From contig JAGGYC010000143.1 of assembly GCA_021162745.1 (NCBI GenBank), forward strand, positions 1 to 35,442: 35,442 nucleotides of DNA, written 5' to 3'. Every line of letters begins with the position of its first letter. Position 1 is the first letter of the stretch. The DNA is from Desulfuromonas sp. (GTDB lineage: Bacteria; Desulfobacterota; Desulfuromonadia; Desulfuromonadales; Desulfuromonadaceae). The translations under genes were made by a program, and so were the position numbers. Below, in pieces: positions 115 to 29,577 of this stretch. The notes under the pieces are model-generated. The model was not told the DNA's origin and searched no databases. It saw nothing but the letters and a program-made list of their open reading frames with translations.

Positions 115-2313
115 ATGAAAAATAAACGATTATTTATCGCTTTGATGTCAGCTCTATTGATCGTATGTGGCTATGCGGGGTTCAGCTTTGGAGAGAATTT
201 CCATGTTAACGACAGCCTGCGGACCTGCCAAGGGCCGGACAGAATACCGGGGGGAATTGTGATCAAATTCAAACCGGGAACCAAGGGTAACGACATTGCC
301 GCCCTGCATGCCCGCCATGATGTGTCCGAGCTGTCCACCAGCCGCTACAGCGGGGTCAAACGCCTGAAGATTTCACCACGCAAGAGCATTGACGAGATAG
401 TTGCCATCTACAGCCGTAACCCCAATGTGGAATACGCCGAACCCAACTTTATTGTCCATGCACAATTGCAGCCGGATGACCCCTATTACCCGTCCTATCA
501 ATAGCATCTGGGTAACATTAAGCACGGCGGCATTGAAATGGAGGAAGCCGGGGATATCACAACCGGTGATACCGATGTGATTGTTGCCGTGGTGGACACC
601 GGCGTCGCCTTCGAGGATTACGACCAATATGTGCCGCGAAACGCGCACAATGGCTATTATGTCAACTACCTGCAGGCTCCCGACCTGGCCCAGACCTCGT
701 TTGTCGCCGGCTATGACTTTATCAACGACGACGCCCACCCTAACGACGATCAGGGCCACGGCACCCATGTCACCGGCACCATCGCCCAGAGCACCAATAA
801 CGGTATAGGTGCCGCCGGCATTGCCTTTGACACCACCATCATGCCGGTAAAGGTGCTGGACAGTAACGGCTCCGGCAGCTATACCGCCATTGCCGAAGGT
901 ATTTATTTTGCCGCCGACAACGGTGCCCAAGTGATCAACATGAGTCTGGGCGGCGGCAGTGAGTCGATCACCTTGGAAAACGCCCTGATTTACGCCTACA
1001 ATGAAGGCGTCACCATTGTTTGTGCTTCGGGTAATGACGGTTTTACCAATGCCATCAGTTATCCGGCAACCTATGATGCCTACTGCATTGCCGTTGGCGC
1101 TACCCGCTACGATGAAGCAGTAAGCTACTATTCAAATCAAGGTGCCTCGCTGGACATCACCGCACCGGGTGGTGACACCGGCATCGACCAAAATGGCGAT
1201 GGCTACGGTGATGGCATCCTGCAACAGACCTTTGGCGACAACCCGACGGATTTTGGCTATTATTTCTATCAGGGTACCAGCATGGCCACCCCCCATGTCA
1301 GTGGCGTTGCCGCATTGCTGTTGGCTCAAGACATCAATCGCACCCCGGATCATATCCGCGAAATCCTGCAAAACACCGCCAAGGATAGCGGCCCAACCGG
1401 TTGGAATACAGGCTATAGCTGGGGTATTGTCGATGCCGCCTCAGCGCTGAGCTACGCCGCCATCCCGAACAGCATACCCGTCGCCGTCATATCCAGCCCA
1501 GCCGACGGCAGCGAGGATATTGCCATCAGTTTCGATGGTTCCAACAGCTACGATGACGATGGTGACGCCCTCACCTACCGCTGGAATTTCGGTGATGGAA
1601 TCATTGGTTCAGGTGTTACCACGACCCACAGCTACACCAGCGGCGACGACTACACGGTGTCGCTGATCGTCAATGACGGCAAAGCTGATTCTGAAGCCAC
1701 CACGACCACCCTCACCATCATTGAAGTCAACGATCCGCCACAGGCCGATGCCGGCATTGATCAAACTGCAATTGTGGGTCAAGTGGTCCATTTCGATGCC
1801 GCAGGCTCATACGCTATTGATGGTGACATTATCAGCTATGAATGGGACTTTGGCGACGGCGCTAGCGGCAGTGGTGAAACAACCGATCACATCTATACCA
1901 CTGGGATCTTTACCGTCACCTTGACCGTCATCGATTCTGGTGGCCTTGATGCCAGCGATGAAAGCATCGTCACAGTCACGGCAACCTCTGAAACAAGTCT
2001 GTTGTCTTCCGATATCGTGCTCGATTTTGCTACACGCAAGGCTGGCAAAAACACCTTTGTCAAAGCCTTGGCAACAGTAACCCTGGTTGATGACGGCGGT
2101 CTGGTGGCGGATGTGATTGTAACGGGAGCGTGGGATGACGGTGGCGAACCGCTGTCGGTGGTAAGCGATGCGAATGGAATGGCGCAGTTCGAATCGATCG
2201 AGATCAAAAACCCAGCCAGCGGCACCTCTTTCACCTTTACCATTCAGGAAACGGTCAAAGCGGGTTACGATACCACGCCTGAGGGTGTAACAAGTGAGAC
2301 AGTGACCTATTGA
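115..2313 (+). pseudogene. Secreted subtilisin-like serine protease (S8) with two PKD domains, interrupted by an in-frame TAG
   Basis: One reading frame encodes a whole S8 protease but carries a TAG at 502-504 (codon 130). Before it lie a signal peptide (about residues 1-26) and an inhibitor-type propeptide (about 46-115). After it the same frame continues with the catalytic domain. The triad is complete: Asp161 in VVDTGV (595-597), His215 in GHGTHVTG (757-759) and Ser389 in GTSMATPH (1279-1281). Two PKD domains follow (about 452-538 and 539-622), each with a WxFGDG core, then a beta-rich C-terminal region. The stop sits between YPSYQ and HLGNI, where related subtilases usually have Trp, so a TGG-to-TAG change fits. 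A few residues on, EEAG replaces the usual EEAW. A good ribosome site (GGAAGG) precedes 115, whereas ATG 538 has no signal peptide and no clear ribosome site. It may be a recent pseudogene, a readthrough gene or a sequencing error. Confidence 0.8.
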
Positions 2314-4244: not shown

Positions 4245-5444
4245 TTATGACGCATGAAGGAGGTCGGCCAGATCATTGGCCAATTGCAAGCAGTGATCAA
4301 TGTCATCCTGGGTTGGGGTGAATTGCCAACGCACCCCTTCTCCGGCCAATTTATAGCGCAAGCCGAGCAAACGACCCTGAATCAACTTCACCGCCTCACC
4401 GCTCCAACCATAGGCACCATAAACCGCCGCCAGCTTATTTTTGACGGTCACCGTCGACAGTAGCGCCAACGCTTTCCACACCGGCGGACCGGCATCACGG
4501 TTGATGGTCGCCACACCGATCATCAGCGCATCGCAGCGTTCGAGCTCATGTTGAAACTGTTGATCATCCAACTCAATGGCCGACAACCGGATTACTGTAC
4601 AACCTCTTGCCTGCAGAGCATGGGTCACCCGGTCGCCCATTTTACGCACCGTGCCATGGGGAGAATGTTCAAGCAATAACACCCGCCGCCCCTGGGTCGG
4701 CTGCGGTTGTTGCGACCACAGCTGATAATCCTGTACGGTCTGTTCAATATCCTGACGACGTACCGGGCCATGGGATGGACAGATCATCTTCACCGGGATA
4801 TCCGCCAGTTTGGCAATGGCTTCGCGGACGTTCTTTTTAAATGGACGAACGATGGTATCAAAATACAATTTGAGATCCGCCTGAACATCGCCATTAATCT
4901 CATCGCAAAAGATCTGCCCCTCTTGTGGACAATAGTGTGCACCAAAGGCATCGCAGGAAAACAGCAGCTGATCTTCCTGCAAATAGGTGAACATGGTATC
5001 CGGCCAGTGAAGATACGGTGCAACAATAAACTGCAGTGTGCGCCCCCCCAGATCGAGGGTCTCTCCATCCTTGATGCTGTGGCTATTAAACGAACGGTTC
5101 ATCTGTTGCTGCAAAAATTTCTCAGCAGCTTTAGTACAGTACACTTCAATCTTCGGATTCATCTCCAGCAGACGGGCAATCGATCCAGAATGATCATGCT
5201 CGGTATGGTTGGAGATGATAATGTCAATGTCATCGACGGCACAGACACTGTTAACCCGCGATAGAAACTCGGTAAAAAAATGTTCCTCGGCGGTATCAAC
5301 CAGAACCGTTTTTCCCCCGCCCTTGACCAGATAGGAATTATAGGTTGTACCGCTCTGGGTCGGATATAATTCGTCAAATACACGCAGTTCATGATCATAT
5401 ACACCAACCCAATAGACACCAGCTGTAAGCTCAATAGTTTTCAT
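4245..5444 (-). CDS. fprA: A-type flavodiiron protein (oxygen/nitric-oxide reductase)
   Basis: The 399-residue protein pairs an N-terminal metallo-beta-lactamase-like di-iron domain (about residues 1-250) with a C-terminal flavodoxin domain (about 255-395). All expected iron ligands are visible: His80, Glu82 and Asp84 in the HxExDH motif, His146, Asp165 and His225. Family members are cytoplasmic enzymes of anaerobes that reduce O2 to water and/or NO to N2O with electrons from rubredoxin or similar carriers. The sequence does not tell which substrate dominates. There is no C-terminal rubredoxin or flavin-reductase fusion and no rubredoxin gene next door, so the donor is encoded elsewhere. The ATG at 5444 has a strong AAGGAGA ribosome site. 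The gene appears monocistronic, with repeat-bearing non-coding DNA upstream. Confidence 0.95.
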   Translation of the reverse strand: MKTIELTAGVYWVGVYDHELRVFDELYPTQSGTTYNSYLVKGGGKTVLVDTAEEHFFTEFLSRVNSVCAVDDIDIIISNHTEHDHSGSIARLLEMNPKIEVYCTKAAEKFLQQQMNRSFNSHSIKDGETLDLGGRTLQFIVAPYLHWPDTMFTYLQEDQLLFSCDAFGAHYCPQEGQIFCDEINGDVQADLKLYFDTIVRPFKKNVREAIAKLADIPVKMICPSHGPVRRQDIEQTVQDYQLWSQQPQPTQGRRVLLLEHSPHGTVRKMGDRVTHALQARGCTVIRLSAIELDDQQFQHELERCDALMIGVATINRDAGPPVWKALALLSTVTVKNKLAAVYGAYGWSGEAVKLIQGRLLGLRYKLAGEGVRWQFTPTQDDIDHCLQLANDLADLLHAS

Positions 5445-24113: not shown

Positions 24114-24671
24114 TTATTTCATCGACAAAGCCTGACGACAAAAATCAGCACCACGCTCCAATGCCTGATAATTCATCGGCAGAAAACGATGATTGCGTTC
24201 CGGCAGCACCACTTTCAGCGCCTCCTTGACCGTTTCCATCTTTACCACCTTGCTATACTCAAGATAGGCACCAAGCACGATCATGTTGACCAGGCGTGAA
24301 TCACCCACCTCCAACGCCATCTCATTGGCGGGGATCAGCACCTTTTGCAGGTCATCACGCGATGACCCATCGTCGTCGATCAACGACGAGTTGACCAGGG
24401 CAAAGCCACCACTGCGCACGCGATCATAATATTTTTCCATCGACAGTGGATTGAGCAGCAATGCCGCCTCGGGCTCTCCTACCACCGGCGAGCCGACATT
24501 TTTATCGGCCATAACAATGGTGCAGGTTGCCGCGCCACCGCGCTTTTCAACACCATAGGCTGGAAAATAGGAGGCATCATTACCCTCCATAATGGTGGCA
24601 TAAGCCAATAGATTTCCGATCAGCAAAACGCCCTGGCCACCGAATCCGGCCATAAATACATCATGATTCAT
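24114..24671 (-). CDS. 2-oxoacid:ferredoxin oxidoreductase, gamma subunit
   Basis: The 185-residue protein is the gamma (catalytic domain III) subunit of a four-subunit 2-oxoacid:acceptor oxidoreductase. The glycine-rich CoA-binding-domain start DVFMAGFGGQGVLLIGNLLAYA and the block SYFPAYGVEKRGGAATCTIVMAD are typical. The start at 24671 (MNHDVFMAG) is preferred over 24701 because the family begins near this point and AAAGGA lies upstream. It is the last gene of the set, 51 bases after the beta-subunit stop. The complex oxidatively decarboxylates a 2-oxoacid to acyl-CoA and CO2 and reduces ferredoxin. The substrate, branched-chain 2-oxoacid or 2-oxoglutarate, cannot be fixed from sequence alone. 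Confidence 0.92.
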   Translation of the reverse strand: MNHDVFMAGFGGQGVLLIGNLLAYATIMEGNDASYFPAYGVEKRGGAATCTIVMADKNVGSPVVGEPEAALLLNPLSMEKYYDRVRSGGFALVNSSLIDDDGSSRDDLQKVLIPANEMALEVGDSRLVNMIVLGAYLEYSKVVKMETVKEALKVVLPERNHRFLPMNYQALERGADFCRQALSMK

Positions 24672-24722
24672 CTTCTTTATTCCTTTAGTAACTGGTAACA
24701 CAGGTGTTAACGATTAATACCG

Positions 24723-25478
24723 TTACTCCCCCGTTGCATCTTTATACTCACCCAGCGGAAAATACGGAATCATCTCACTACCGACGCGCTCATTGGCGGC
24801 CAACGGACTCATTCCCCAGTTGGTCGGGCAGGAAGACAACACTTCGACAAACGCAAACCCTTTGCCGTCGAGTTGAGTCTCAAACGCCTTGCGAATCGCC
24901 TTGCCGGCCTGCAACACATGCTTTGGAGTATCCACGGCAACGCGCACCGAGTAGGCCACCCCGTCCAGTCCCGACAGCAGTTCCGCCATTTTGATCGGAT
25001 AACCGGCCTTGGTCACATCACGACCATAAGGGGTGGTGGAGGTGATCTGCCCCGGCAATGTGGTCGGTGCCATCTGGCCACCGGTCATGCCGTAGGTGGT
25101 ATTATTGACAAAAATCACCGTCATCAACTCGCCACGATTGGCGGTATGGATAATCTCACTGGTACCGATCGCCGCCAAGTCACCATCGCCCTGATAGGTA
25201 AACACCGGACGGTTGGGATGAACGCGCTTGGCACCAGTAGCCACAGCCGGAGCCCGACCATGCGGAGCCTCGATGACATCGATATCGAAATAGCCGTACA
25301 AAAAGACACTGCAACCAACCGAAGCAACGCCGATGGTCTGATCCTTGATCCCAAAATGATCTATGGCTTCCGCCACCAGACGATGGATGGTCCCATGCTG
25401 ACAACCGGGGCAAAAATGGGTCTGAACGTCCTTGAGTGAATCGGGACGGGAAAATACTTTTTTCATCTCTGTACTCAT
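24723..25478 (-). CDS. 2-oxoacid:ferredoxin oxidoreductase, beta (thiamine pyrophosphate-binding) subunit
   Basis: The 251-residue beta subunit binds thiamine pyrophosphate and part of the electron-transfer cluster. The TPP motif is visible as [22 protein letters not shown] followed by [20 protein letters not shown]-terminal [14 protein letters not shown] carries conserved cysteines of the proximal iron-sulphur cluster. The start at ATG 25478 (MSTEMKKVF) has GAGG 7 bases upstream and lies 2 bases after the alpha-subunit stop, so alpha and beta are tightly coupled. Confidence 0.94.
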
Positions 25479-25480
25479 GA

Positions 25481-26545
25481 TCAAGCCTCGTAACGGGAGC
25501 GTATCTTGGCCAAAAATTCTTCGGGGGTCGGCAGTGAACCAGCACCGGGAGCCCGACCATAAAAGTCAACCTCAACATCGCGAACCGCCAGACGCACATC
25601 CTCAACCATCTGCCCATTGTTCAGTTCAAAGCACAGAATCCGCTGACCATCACGCTTACACTGCTTGAACGCCGCCTTGGGGAACGGGAACAGGGTGATG
25701 GGGCGCAACAGACCAACCTTCATCCCCTCTTTACGCGCCAGACGGATGGCGGTCTTGGCAATCCGCGCCGTACTGCCGTAGGCCGTTACCACCAATTTGG
25801 CATCATCCAGTTCGATCCCCTCGTAGCGCACCTCTTTTTCCTGCATCACCGCATACTTGGCGTGAAGGTGGTTGTTGTGCGCTTCCAACTCGCCATCGCC
25901 CAAGTACAGCGACTTAATAATCTTCTGCTCACCGGCCTTTCCGTCACCGATCAACGCCCAGTCCTTTGTCTCCAGATCGTCAGGGGCGACATAAGAATGT
26001 GGCTCCAACCCTTCCTTCATCTGACCGATCACCGCATCGGCCAGAATCATCGCCGGCACCCGATAGCGGTCCGACAGATCAAAGCCAAGGATCGCCATGT
26101 CGTACATCTCCTGAACCGAATCAGGGGCGAGAACGATAATGTGGTAACCACCGTGGCCACCGCCCTTCACCGACTGAAAATAATCAGCCTGAGAGGCATC
26201 AATACCACCGAGACCGGGACCGCTACGACAGACATTGACGATCAGGCCCGGACACTCACTGCCCGCCATATAGGAGATCCCCTCCTGCTTGAGGGAGATA
26301 CCGGGGCTGGATGACGAGGTCATAGCCCGTGCACCACAGGCACTGGCTCCCAGCAACATATTGATAGAGGCCACTTCACTTTCAGCCTGAATAAACTCAC
26401 CACCGAGTTTCGGCAACTCCCGCGAAATATATTCGGGGATATCACTTTGCGGGGTGATGGGATAACCAAAATAGTAACGGCAACCGGCCTCAAGAGCCCC
26501 CATCGCTACCGCTTCATTGCCTTTAACAAACAAACGTTTTGTCAC
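25481..26545 (-). CDS. vorB: 2-oxoacid:ferredoxin oxidoreductase, alpha subunit (VorB-like)
   Basis: This is a 354-residue alpha subunit. It has the family start [32 protein letters not shown], the [41 protein letters not shown] block that shapes the TPP pyrimidine site, and a C-terminal domain with [16 protein letters not shown]. The length and these blocks fit proteins annotated as VorB (3-methyl-2-oxobutanoate oxidoreductase) better than pyruvate or KorA-type subunits. This substrate call is family inference. The start is GTG 26545 with GGAGG five bases upstream; the longer frame to 26569 has weaker support. In anaerobes such enzymes link amino-acid or TCA-cycle carbon flow to ferredoxin reduction. 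Confidence 0.9.
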
Positions 26546-26596
26546 GTATTCCTCCATTGCGAACAGCACTTACGCAGCGCGCTTATACTTCTCCGC

Positions 26597-26824
26597 TTAT
26601 TTCTCGCTTATTTCTCTATAAACCTCGATAGCCACATCGGGGCAGATCTGCGCACACAGGGTACATCCCGTGCAACGTTCCATATCCTCAGCACTGATCA
26701 CCGCCGGCAGAAAGCCCTGTTTGTTCAGCTCGGTACTCATTTTAATCAGACCCTGAGGACAGGCCACGGTACACAGAGCACAGCCCTTGCATCGCAACTC
26801 ATCAATAATAATTTTATTTGCCAC
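26597..26824 (-). CDS. 2x[4Fe-4S] ferredoxin subunit of the 2-oxoacid oxidoreductase
   Basis: The 75-residue protein holds two CxxCxxCxxxCP clusters: CKGCALCTVACP near residue 12 and CTGCTLCAQICP near residue 51, each able to hold a [4Fe-4S] cluster. It is the delta subunit that carries electrons from the TPP site to soluble ferredoxin. A GTG start at 26824 follows AAGGACGAG. It is the first gene of the four-gene set, 51 bases before the alpha subunit. A short direct repeat (CGCTTATTTCT twice, near 26595-26615) lies over its stop codon. Confidence 0.94.
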   Translation of the reverse strand: MANKIIIDELRCKGCALCTVACPQGLIKMSTELNKQGFLPAVISAEDMERCTGCTLCAQICPDVAIEVYREISEK

Positions 26825-27191
26825 GTTCTCGTCCTTTATGCTTACAACGCACTAAAAATTAAGCGGCCCCAAACCTTTGAGACACAACTTTTAACTATAT
26901 CAAATACCGTAAATGGTCGTCAAACTGAAATAACATCGACAGCAATCCGCCCAGGTTTACGGAAGGCTTTCTTGGAACTTTTGCCTTTTGAGTAACTGTA
27001 GGCCGCTCCGACAGTCACTCAATGAAAGTTCGCGAAGGGCGTGAGTCGCTATCAACTCACGCCAGCAATAGCAAACACCAATAGTAACCATTCAAAACAT
27101 CAATATTTCCATTTTGACATTACTTAAACTATTTACGTACATTGCGACCCTTAACGTCATCCTTATTGCAAAATCATCACAAAGGAAATCC
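26825..27191. other. Divergent intergenic region with two hairpins
   Basis: This region lies between the oxidoreductase operon (minus) and the activase/reductase operon (plus) and must hold both promoters. Two inverted repeats are clear: 26988-26999 with 27011-27022 (11 of 12 pair) and 27038-27046 with 27055-27063 (9 of 9 pair, 8-base loop). Neither is followed by a T-run. I see no coding frame and cannot assign -10/-35 boxes confidently. Confidence 0.55.
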
Positions 27192-27962
27192 ATGACAGAT
27201 ATAACAGTTGGTATCGACATTGGCTCAACAGCCACCAAGGCTGTCCTTGTTAACGATGGCCAGATTACCGCACAGGTGGTGATCCCCAGCGGTTGGGATC
27301 CCAAGCAAGCCGGACGCGATGCCTACGATGCCCTGCTGCAACAGAGCAAACTTGGCGAAACAGACGTCAAGGCTGTGGTTGCTACCGGCTATGGCCGTAT
27401 ATCGTTACCGTTTGCCGACCGTCGGGTGACCGAAGTCACCTGCCACGGTCGCGGTGCTGAATATATGGTGCCGGGCAGTCGACTGGTAGTCGATATTGGA
27501 GGTCAGGACAGTAAGGTAATTGCTCTAGATGGTCGAGGCAATGTTACCGATTTCCTGATGAATGATAAATGCGCCGCCGGAACCGGACGTTTTTTGCAAG
27601 TGATGGCCGGAGTCCTCGACCTAACTCTCGACGAACTGGGAGAGTTGGCATTGGTTTCAGAACCTGCCGTCATCAGCAGTATGTGTACCGTTTTTGCCGA
27701 ATCGGAAGTGATCGGCCTGCTGGCCCGTGGCACCGCTAAAGGAGCCATCGCCGCCGGCGTCGTTGAATCCATCGCCAAGCGCCTGCCGACCCTGGTCGGG
27801 CGGATGCCGCACACCGAGGCCATCACCTTTACCGGTGGGCTTGCTGGCAACAGCGCCATCTGTCAACGCATCGAACACAGCCTTGGTCGCCAGCTACAGG
27901 TTCCCAAACTCCCACAAATGGCCGGAGCCATCGGCGCTGCCCTTATCGGTAGCGATCTTTAA
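27192..27962 (+). CDS. Acyl-CoA dehydratase activase-type ATPase (BadF/HgdC family), partner of the double-cubane reductase
   Basis: The 256-residue ATPase is of the ASKHA fold. The phosphate-1 motif GIDIGSTATKAVLV is at residues 7-20, the phosphate-2 motif VVDIGGQDSKVI at about 99-110, and the adenosine motif FTGGLAGN near 218. Cys127 (DKCAAGTGRF) and Cys165 (SSMCTVFAESEV) are the two cysteines per monomer that hold the [4Fe-4S] cluster bridging the homodimer. These proteins couple ATP hydrolysis to a low-potential electron delivered to a partner reductase. AAGGAAA precedes the ATG; an upstream in-frame ATG at 27114 lacks family similarity. It lies 14 bases before the partner gene. Confidence 0.94.
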   Translation: MTDITVGIDIGSTATKAVLVNDGQITAQVVIPSGWDPKQAGRDAYDALLQQSKLGETDVKAVVATGYGRISLPFADRRVTEVTCHGRGAEYMVPGSRLVVDIGGQDSKVIALDGRGNVTDFLMNDKCAAGTGRFLQVMAGVLDLTLDELGELALVSEPAVISSMCTVFAESEVIGLLARGTAKGAIAAGVVESIAKRLPTLVGRMPHTEAITFTGGLAGNSAICQRIEHSLGRQLQVPKLPQMAGAIGAALIGSDL

Positions 27963-27976
27963 TCTCAGGAGAAGTT

Positions 27977-29125
27977 ATGCAGTCAGCCATCTATGAACAA
28001 CTTGAAACTTTACGCGAAAACAATGTCATCGCCCTGAAAAATGCCAAAGAAGCAGGACAAAACATCGTCGGTATTTACTGCCTATACGCACCGGCAGAGC
28101 TGATCGTCGCTGCTGGTGCCAGTCCGGTCGTACTGTGTGGCACCAGTCAAAAACCGATCCCCACCGCCGAACAGAGCCTGCCACGCAACCTCTGCCCGCT
28201 GATCAAATCGAGCTACGGTTTTGCCGTCACCGACACCTGCCCATTCTTCCATTTCGCTGACTTCATCGTCGCTGAAACCACCTGCGATGGCAAAAAGAAG
28301 ATGTTCGAGCTGATGGAAGAGATCAAACCCATGCACCTGATGCAGTTACCACAGATTCAGGACAAGGAATCGGCCCTCGCCTACTGGGTCAAGGAACTGG
28401 AGCAGTTGAAGACACGGCTCGAAAAAACCTTCGACGTTGAGATCACCGAGCAGAAACTGATCGACGCCATCGAACTGCTCAATGACGAGCGACGCAGCCT
28501 CAAGGAACTTCAGGATGTCTGCCGCCATAAACCGGCACCCATCAGCGGCATGAAGATGCTCACCGTCCTCCATAATCGCGGTTTCGCCCTCGATAAACGC
28601 GCCACCATCCAACTGGTCGATCAACTCACCGCCGAACTGACCGAACGGATCGAGCAAGGGATCTCCACCCTAGCCACCGATGCACCACGCATCCTGCTCA
28701 CCGGTGTTCCCGTCGGACTCGGTTCCGAAAAAGTGGTCCGCATCATCGAAGAAGCCGGTGGTCAGGTGGTGTGCTTCGAGAGCTGCGGTGCCTATAAAAA
28801 AGTGGAACCGGTACAACAAAGCGATGACACCCTGCGCGGCATTGCCGAAAGTTACCTCGATATCCCCTGCTCCTGCATGTCGCCCAACCAAGGTCGCTAC
28901 CAGCTGGTGTCGCGCCTCGCCAAAGAGTTTCAGGCCGACGGCGTCATCGATCTGACCTGGCAGGCCTGCCACACCTACAACATCGAGTCATTCAGCCTGC
29001 GTAAGCATGTGCAACAGCAAACCGGGCTGCCGTTCCTCCAAATTGAGACCGATTACTCCGAGTCGGACAGCGAACAGCTAAAACTGCGCCTGGAGGCCTT
29101 TTTGGAATTATTGGCAGGGCGGTAG
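27977..29125 (+). CDS. Double-cubane-cluster-containing anaerobic reductase (YjiM/HgdB-like)
   Basis: The 382-residue protein belongs to the 2-hydroxyacyl-CoA dehydratase D-component superfamily, in the single-subunit branch that includes E. coli YjiM and the double-cubane protein of Carboxydothermus. Cysteines at 35, 54, 73, 88, 103, 270, 298, 300 and 331 fall in blocks I recall as conserved there: RNLCPLIKSSYG, TCPFFHFADF, ETTCDGKKKM, IPCSCMSPN and ACHTYNIES. Several are expected to bind the [Fe8S9] double-cubane cluster. True dehydratases have two different subunits; here only one is present, with its activase, which supports a reductase rather than a dehydratase. The natural substrate is unknown. 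GGAGAAG precedes the ATG and a terminator follows. Confidence 0.9.
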   Translation: MQSAIYEQLETLRENNVIALKNAKEAGQNIVGIYCLYAPAELIVAAGASPVVLCGTSQKPIPTAEQSLPRNLCPLIKSSYGFAVTDTCPFFHFADFIVAETTCDGKKKMFELMEEIKPMHLMQLPQIQDKESALAYWVKELEQLKTRLEKTFDVEITEQKLIDAIELLNDERRSLKELQDVCRHKPAPISGMKMLTVLHNRGFALDKRATIQLVDQLTAELTERIEQGISTLATDAPRILLTGVPVGLGSEKVVRIIEEAGGQVVCFESCGAYKKVEPVQQSDDTLRGIAESYLDIPCSCMSPNQGRYQLVSRLAKEFQADGVIDLTWQACHTYNIESFSLRKHVQQQTGLPFLQIETDYSESDSEQLKLRLEAFLELLAGR

Positions 29126-29154: not shown

Positions 29155-29194
29155 AAATCGGCCAGCGAAGATTTCGATGGCCGGTTTTTATTTT
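29155..29194. terminator. Bidirectional terminator between the reductase and the bio operon end
   Basis: The outer stem CGGCCA/TGGCCG (29159-29164 with 29178-29183) encloses an inner CGAA/TTCG stem. A-rich sequence precedes it and TTTTTATTTT follows. It can serve both the plus-strand reductase operon and the minus-strand biotin operon. Confidence 0.85.
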
Positions 29195-29259: not shown

Positions 29260-29577
29260 CTACCCTTGAGGAAACATCCGTTCTGCAGCATATTCAGTGA
29301 TATCCGCCGCATAATGCAGAAACAGATCCTTCTTCCCTTCAATGGGTACCCAGTAACTGTCGAGCACCATCTCCAGTTCGGAGTAGTAACTGACAGCGTG
29401 CTTACCAGTATTCTCTTTGAGCGCCTGATTGTCCTGGCAACGCTGACAGGAGATACCGCCCTCTTTGACACAGCGTTTGCCGCGGCACAGGCCAATTTTG
29501 TCTACCTGCGGGTTGGCGGCGAGGATGGTGCGGACCTTATATCCCAGCATCACGACCGAAGGATGGTTATCCCACAT
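29260..29577 (-). CDS. Small cysteine-containing protein at the end of the biotin operon, function unknown
   Basis: I do not recognise this 105-residue protein. The middle carries CRGKRCVKEGGISCQRCQ (residues about 31-48), four cysteines in a CxxxxC...CxxC arrangement that could hold a metal or an iron-sulphur cluster; the rest is alpha/beta with an aromatic-rich C terminus. ATG 29577 lacks a clear ribosome site, so the true start is uncertain. It lies 77 bases after the bioA stop, same strand, before the shared terminator, so it is probably co-transcribed with the bio genes. A role in biotin synthesis is not shown. Confidence 0.65.
   Translation of the reverse strand: MWDNHPSVVMLGYKVRTILAANPQVDKIGLCRGKRCVKEGGISCQRCQDNQALKENTGKHAVSYYSELEMVLDSYWVPIEGKKDLFLHYAADITEYAAERMFPQG

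Follow-up and report, generated by a model that had tools for sequence, protein, structure and literature searches.

The activase gene and the double-cubane cluster protein (DCCP) gene that lie side by side in the window (the whole stretch of 35,442 nucleotides that was analysed) are best explained overall as an operon that is complete in itself, was probably acquired horizontally and encodes an ATP-driven double-cubane reductase, a reading to which we assign a probability of roughly 0.8. The pair appears to represent an already known kind of ATP-driven double-cubane system, with a mechanism that is secure by homology to characterised relatives and a substrate that we can only infer. It is carried on contig C9 of a 2.9 Mb genome (97% complete), and the features of the locus and of the operon next to it are as follows:

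24117-26824, minus strand: 2-oxoacid:ferredoxin oxidoreductase operon korDABC, CoA-acylating; VorB-type subunit PRK07119 at 533 bits (cut-off 399)
27098-27143, plus strand: promoter block, a conserved CATCAATATTTCC element and then TTGACA (27114-27119), 18 nt and TACATT (27138-27143)
27192-27962, plus strand: activase gene (BadF/BcrA-type ATPase, 256 aa) with an ATG start; TIGR00241 and PF01869 matches, C127 and C165
27967-27974, plus strand: RBS-like AGGAGAAG ahead of the DCCP gene, read from the sequence
27977-29125, plus strand: DCCP gene (YjiM-type, 382 aa), assigned by NF040772, ligand columns, tree and structure model
29159-29189, plus strand: terminator-like hairpin (CGGCCA ... TGGCCG) and then a T run, 3' of the DCCP gene, read from the sequence

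Both genes are real and located where the first-pass annotation had put them, at 27192-29125. The listed activase ORF starts further upstream, at a TTG at 27114, the ATG being at 27192, and a gap of 14 bp separates the activase gene from the DCCP gene. The promoter at 27114-27143 is sigma-70-like (the scan found 3 such promoters, against 1.4 expected in shuffles) and the promoter block is shared with loci L006, L119 and L007, most of the sequence further upstream of it not being conserved. The hairpin went unflagged by the terminator scan because its loop exceeds the loop limit of that scan, and it is unconserved in the three relatives compared; an Rfam scan of the window gave no match and a tRNA scan of the window found none. 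As read from these elements, the activase and DCCP genes form a two-gene operon with its own predicted promoter, and in base composition the pair resembles its kor and bio neighbours. A 105-aa ORF (29263-29577, minus strand) sits between the DCCP gene and bioA; it carries a cluster of four cysteines (GLCRGKRCVKEGGISCQRCQ) and gave no match in Pfam. Elsewhere, the window carries a subtilase with PKD domains (538-2313, plus strand) and an ORF (4248-5444, minus strand) with an ODP-type metallo-beta-lactamase domain and then a weak flavodoxin match, which is therefore perhaps a flavodiiron protein.

The activase scored 267 bits against NCBIfam TIGR00241 (cut-off 125.4) and also matched PF01869. 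It has four cysteines (84, 127, 165 and 224), and C127 and C165, which had been singled out beforehand as the cluster cysteines, are both present and invariant across the 12 activases aligned. An activase match adjoins 95 of 108 DCCP loci. In this family there is one cluster per activase dimer, and electrons are passed in single-electron steps.

The partner had been annotated as a YjiM/double-cubane-type protein, and the family model, tree and predicted fold all agree: it scored 521 bits against NCBIfam NF040772 "double_cubane" (cut-off 350), versus 121 bits (HadC; cut-off 700) and 44 bits (cut-off 750) for the HadBC dehydratase models and 83, 49, 26 and 21 bits for the benzoyl-CoA reductase models BzdN, BcrC, BcrB and BzdO (cut-offs 454, 421, 487 and 449). 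By sequence, its match to the Carboxydothermus hydrogenoformans DCCP in the PDB had an E-value of 1.7e-85 and that to HadC one of 1.4e-26; its closest named relatives are from uncultured Desulfuromonadales. Nine of its eleven cysteines (35, 54, 73, 88, 103, 270, 298, 300 and 331, but not 182 or 266) align with cysteines of the C. hydrogenoformans DCCP, so that the earlier description of nine intact block cysteines holds. The putative [8Fe-9S] ligands C35, C73, C103, C270, C298 and C331 align with BzdN ligands 36/73/100/263/293/327 (numbered as in a passage of PMC11971306). Loss of these ligands, which would have told against the first-pass reading, did not occur in the alignment: all six columns are cysteine in every one of the 84 relatives at ≥50% identity, four of them in 24 of 24 rows at 35-44% identity (23 of 24 for the C298 and C331 columns), and cysteine is found in four or five of the five rows below 35% identity, whereas in HadC the columns of C35 and C270 are occupied by P and A. 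C300 is cysteine in only 55 of the 84 relatives at ≥50% identity. The AlphaFold2 model of the protein (55-row alignment; pLDDT 93.8) is nearest to the C. hydrogenoformans DCCP, not to a dehydratase, with Z-scores of 53.0 (1.5 Å over 377 residues, 37% identity) for that DCCP, 45.2 for BzdN and 43.6 for HadC and a Foldseek match to the DCCP at E 9e-33.

By analogy with the characterised homologues, we consider it very probable that the pair works by an ATP-driven transfer from activase to double cubane. The activase dimer would carry one [4Fe-4S] cluster and accept single electrons from a reduced carrier, e.g., ferredoxin (a donor that we infer); with ATP spent in the process, it would deliver these electrons, at very low potential, to a double cubane in the DCCP, which would act as a homodimer and reduce a small substrate in turn. 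DCCPs and related proteins are common (143 of the 394 genomes of the phylum sample have a relative at E ≤ 1e-40), and their reported ATP-driven chemistry recalls that of nitrogenase with a simpler cluster.

In a tree of 65 rows, the window DCCP did not fall among the two-subunit dehydratases but with the DCCPs, in a 38-row group (support 100/99) that includes E. coli YjiM; by position in the tree it lies away from HadC, BzdN and MbdN, all three on long branches, and the C. hydrogenoformans DCCP is in a separate group of 21 rows (93/81, not starred). The two subgroups differ at ten positions (86 versus 25 rows), among them T56/G, K274/R, W328/L and A330/F, and positions 328 and 330 are beside ligand C331; several of these ten positions are different in E. 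coli YjiM. On these alignments, the window DCCP is YjiM-like and the DCCP with solved structures belongs to another subgroup, for which reason the latter may be a poor stand-in for YjiM-type proteins. Ten loci (L012, L013, L042, L060, L061, L064, L077, L081, L189 and L191) have one DCCP gene of the YjiM type and one of the Carboxydothermus type, at most 3 kb apart and mostly with a single activase gene; the two types may cooperate there or be served by one common activase.

The pair is probably a mobile, horizontally acquired cassette. Three genomes of another family (f18) carry DCCP copies with 80-85% identity to that of the window, and the copy in the window's own family has 66%; PNPase from the same genomes is 77-78% (f18) and 79% (own family) identical; PNPase is 88-90% identical in the five members of the genus with a full-length match. 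Within the window's order, a DCCP over the cut-off was found in 26 of 136 genomes (seven of them YjiM-type), and within its genus in 3 of 10, the YjiM-type only in the window's own genome. In a close relative, an IS21-type transposase gene lies just upstream of the pair (L119, 7921-9513, minus strand). At G009:C1:1354055-1354162 (in L140), 36 residues match the DCCP model with 36.5 bits, and no other DCCP or activase sequence was found around them; this is perhaps the remnant of a gene lost in the window's genus, or chance.

The kor/vor operon starts about 0.4 kb from the pair, on the opposite strand. The first-pass annotation had argued against amino-acid fermentation on the ground that no CoA transferase or acyl-CoA gene was near, and the acyl-CoA part of this argument fails because a CoA-acylating operon adjoins. 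Twelve relatives of the window's family have a KorA match and 11 were examined: korDABC was present in all 11, and the pair was absent upstream of korD in all eight with several kb of sequence there (L227, L230 and L231 end too soon). Adjacency to kor is consequently no evidence either way, and the kor neighbourhood is incidental. A role for the kor operon as functional partner, supplying reduced ferredoxin, was rejected, as korDABC stands without the pair in the 8/8 testable relatives.

For the natural substrate, selenium is the leading though unproven lead, drawn from the genes around the relatives. Part of this association is already in print. A passage of the preprint PMC10418091 provisionally links DCCP genes to selenium metabolism and places them in type I mlp gene clusters, which are thought to handle methyl-selenide, and an earlier survey (PMC5322559) names an activase and a 2-hydroxyglutaryl-CoA dehydratase subunit as partners that STRING connects with YedE, YedF, DUF3343 and a LysR-like regulator in Slackia. 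To this we add the distinction between subgroups, evidence that the pair is mobile and a neighbourhood count with controls. Within the window's clade, one locus (L120) has YedF and SelD over their cut-offs and a cysteine-desulfurase/Sec-lyase-like protein; L118 has YedF, a Sec-lyase-like protein and Sao-like transporter genes below their cut-offs, with corrinoid and methyltransferase matches; L008 has YedF and rhodanese and then formate dehydrogenase; L011 has proteins resembling a corrinoid protein, MtaA and a corrinoid activator, to which L014 and L114 have matches; and L009 has a molybdenum hydroxylase instead.

The neighbourhood count was made with fixed queries over flanks of mostly ≤8 kb per side; four duplicates were removed first (102 loci kept), and L008, L011, L118 and L120, having given queries, were left out (98 counted). 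The survey of relatives proposed at first pass showed an over-representation of selenium genes near the YjiM-type: one was present in the flanks of 17 of 98 YjiM-type loci, which are phylogenetically non-independent, versus 1 of 58 control regions, which come from outside the Bacillota loci (0 of 38, plus 1 of 20 same-genome controls from nine YjiM-type genomes only; Fisher p 0.003). The count rises to 22 of 98 when mlp-cluster genes are included, with queries picked after the neighbours of some loci, including L014 and L114, had been viewed. The sole positive among the same-genome controls, L215 (G213:C12:20000-37000), has a YedF match of 136 bits. A later set comprised 20 of the 21 non-window genomes with a match at ≥46% identity (G184 omitted), or 18 after removal of two duplicates, and gave by itself 6 of 18 versus 1 of 20 controls (Fisher p 0.038). 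None of the 16 Carboxydothermus-type loci of the order had a selenium gene, which does not set them significantly apart from the YjiM-type (p 0.12). Across the phylum sample, at least five genomes (G176, G202, G205, G212 and G481) have selD ≤8 kb from a DCCP gene, and since the DCCP near selD lies outside the YjiM subgroup in at least four of them (all but G176), the selenium link looks general to the wider DCCP family rather than specific to YjiM.

On the strength of these neighbourhoods of relatives, the natural substrate of the YjiM-type subgroup might be a selenium (or sulfur) compound in oxidised, organic or methylated form, which the enzyme would convert to a form usable by the selenium pathway; we hold a selenium (or related chalcogen) substrate as a tentative proposal at clearly less than even odds, and lower still for the window copy. 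Within the window, no query matched a selenium or mlp-cluster gene near the pair. The genome has selA over the cut-off on contig C147, with selB (by its GTPase motif) and a selD match beside it; a search of the same genome gave no YedF, no YedE over the cut-off and no mlp-type methyltransferase at E ≤ 1e-30. Co-occurrence across the 136 genomes of the order was not significant for selA (24 of 26 DCCP genomes versus 90 of 110 others) or for YedE (9/26 versus 50/110), nor, for the YjiM-type alone, for YedE (5/7 versus 54/129) or YedF (6/7 versus 93/129); that of SelD is uninformative because it is too common, being over the cut-off in 357 of the 394 genomes of the phylum. The mlp-type methyltransferase is present in 3 of the 136 genomes, two of them YjiM-type and one of these the query donor, without which the comparison is 1/6 versus 1/129 (p 0.087). 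The main texts of PMC11097638, PMC13188914 and PMC9312934, among them a study of how transcriptome and proteome respond to selenium starvation in Methanococcus, make no mention of cubane, dehydratase or activase. No physiological substrate of any DCCP was found stated in the open-licence literature searched, the primary DCCP papers lying outside it. The fuller proposal, that YjiM-type DCCPs, and E. coli YjiM among them, serve selenium metabolism as ATP-driven reductases, making selenide or a selenol out of oxidised, organic or methylated selenium for SelD or for methyl-selenide salvage, with the window pair as a mobile, stand-alone version in a genome that has selA, selB and selD without YedF or YedE, seems to us unlikely as a whole, at something like one chance in four.

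Three other explanations have to be weighed. The pair could encode a low-potential reductase of broad range, which would detoxify or scavenge acetylene, hydrazine, azide and other small molecules and have no dedicated selenium role, and we regard this as a serious possibility that falls clearly short of an even chance. Part of PMC11971306 reports the reduction of exactly these three compounds by the C. hydrogenoformans DCCP, with its physiology unclear; the window pair is isolated, no genes of a pathway adjoining it, 81 of the 98 YjiM-type loci have no selenium gene in the flanks in view, and the distribution of DCCPs is patchy and mobile. A general scavenger, however, predicts no bias in gene neighbourhood, and selenium genes are over-represented near the relatives. 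Much less probable is a role as low-potential donor to, or reactivator of, another metalloenzyme, e.g., a corrinoid protein trapped as cob(II)alamin: the pair does adjoin corrinoid and methyltransferase genes in L011, L014, L114 and L118, but those clusters have a corrinoid-activator-like protein of their own (L011, with matches in L014, L114 and L118) and the mlp-type methyltransferase is absent from the window genome. A component of a two-subunit 2-hydroxyacyl-CoA dehydratase or of a benzoyl-CoA reductase, acting in amino-acid or aromatic metabolism, would share the superfamily, fold and activase type and sit well beside a CoA-acylating kor/vor operon, but relatives have that operon without the pair, and the reading was rejected, with hardly any probability left to it, on the model scores, the single HGD-D (PF06050) gene in this 97%-complete genome, the ligand columns (HadC lacking cysteine at two), the tree and the predicted fold.

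Among the closest known systems, HadBC, the (R)-2-hydroxyisocaproyl-CoA dehydratase (PDB 3o3m), resembles the window pair in fold (Z 44) and in its related activase, and differs from the window DCCP in having two subunits, in P/A at the C35/C270 columns and in a curated cut-off far above the score of the window protein. BzdN of the class I benzoyl-CoA reductase (PDB 8s02) shares the six [8Fe-9S] ligands by alignment and the fold (Z 45); it works with a second subunit, BzdO (in part of PMC11971306), and the window protein is far below the BzdN cut-off. The C. hydrogenoformans DCCP/DCCP-R system (PDB 6eno, 7yyl and 7yzm) is like the window pair in fold (Z 53), six ligand cysteines and paired activase, and its DCCP is unlike that of the window in its longer N-terminus (422 aa) and in G56, R274, L328 and F330 around the cluster ligands. 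As to expression, a passage of PMC7306483 has the pair downregulated under CO in Calderihabitans, and part of a study of the E. coli YgfI regulator (PMC9068703) lists yjiM and yjiL in a table of expression changes with formate hydrogenlyase genes, which is an anaerobic context and no test of selenium.

E. coli YjiL-YjiM (b4334, b4335) belongs to the same subgroup as the window pair, with 46% identity in each protein. YjiM has the short form, T56, K274 and A330 and the six ligand cysteines in common with the window DCCP, and is set apart by a long branch (1.54) and by L, not W, at 328; the activase gene is downstream of the DCCP gene in E. coli, whereas it is upstream in the window. The neighbourhood result indicates a class of substrates that can be tested, and with YjiM the subgroup has a member in E. 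coli, where simple genetics is possible.
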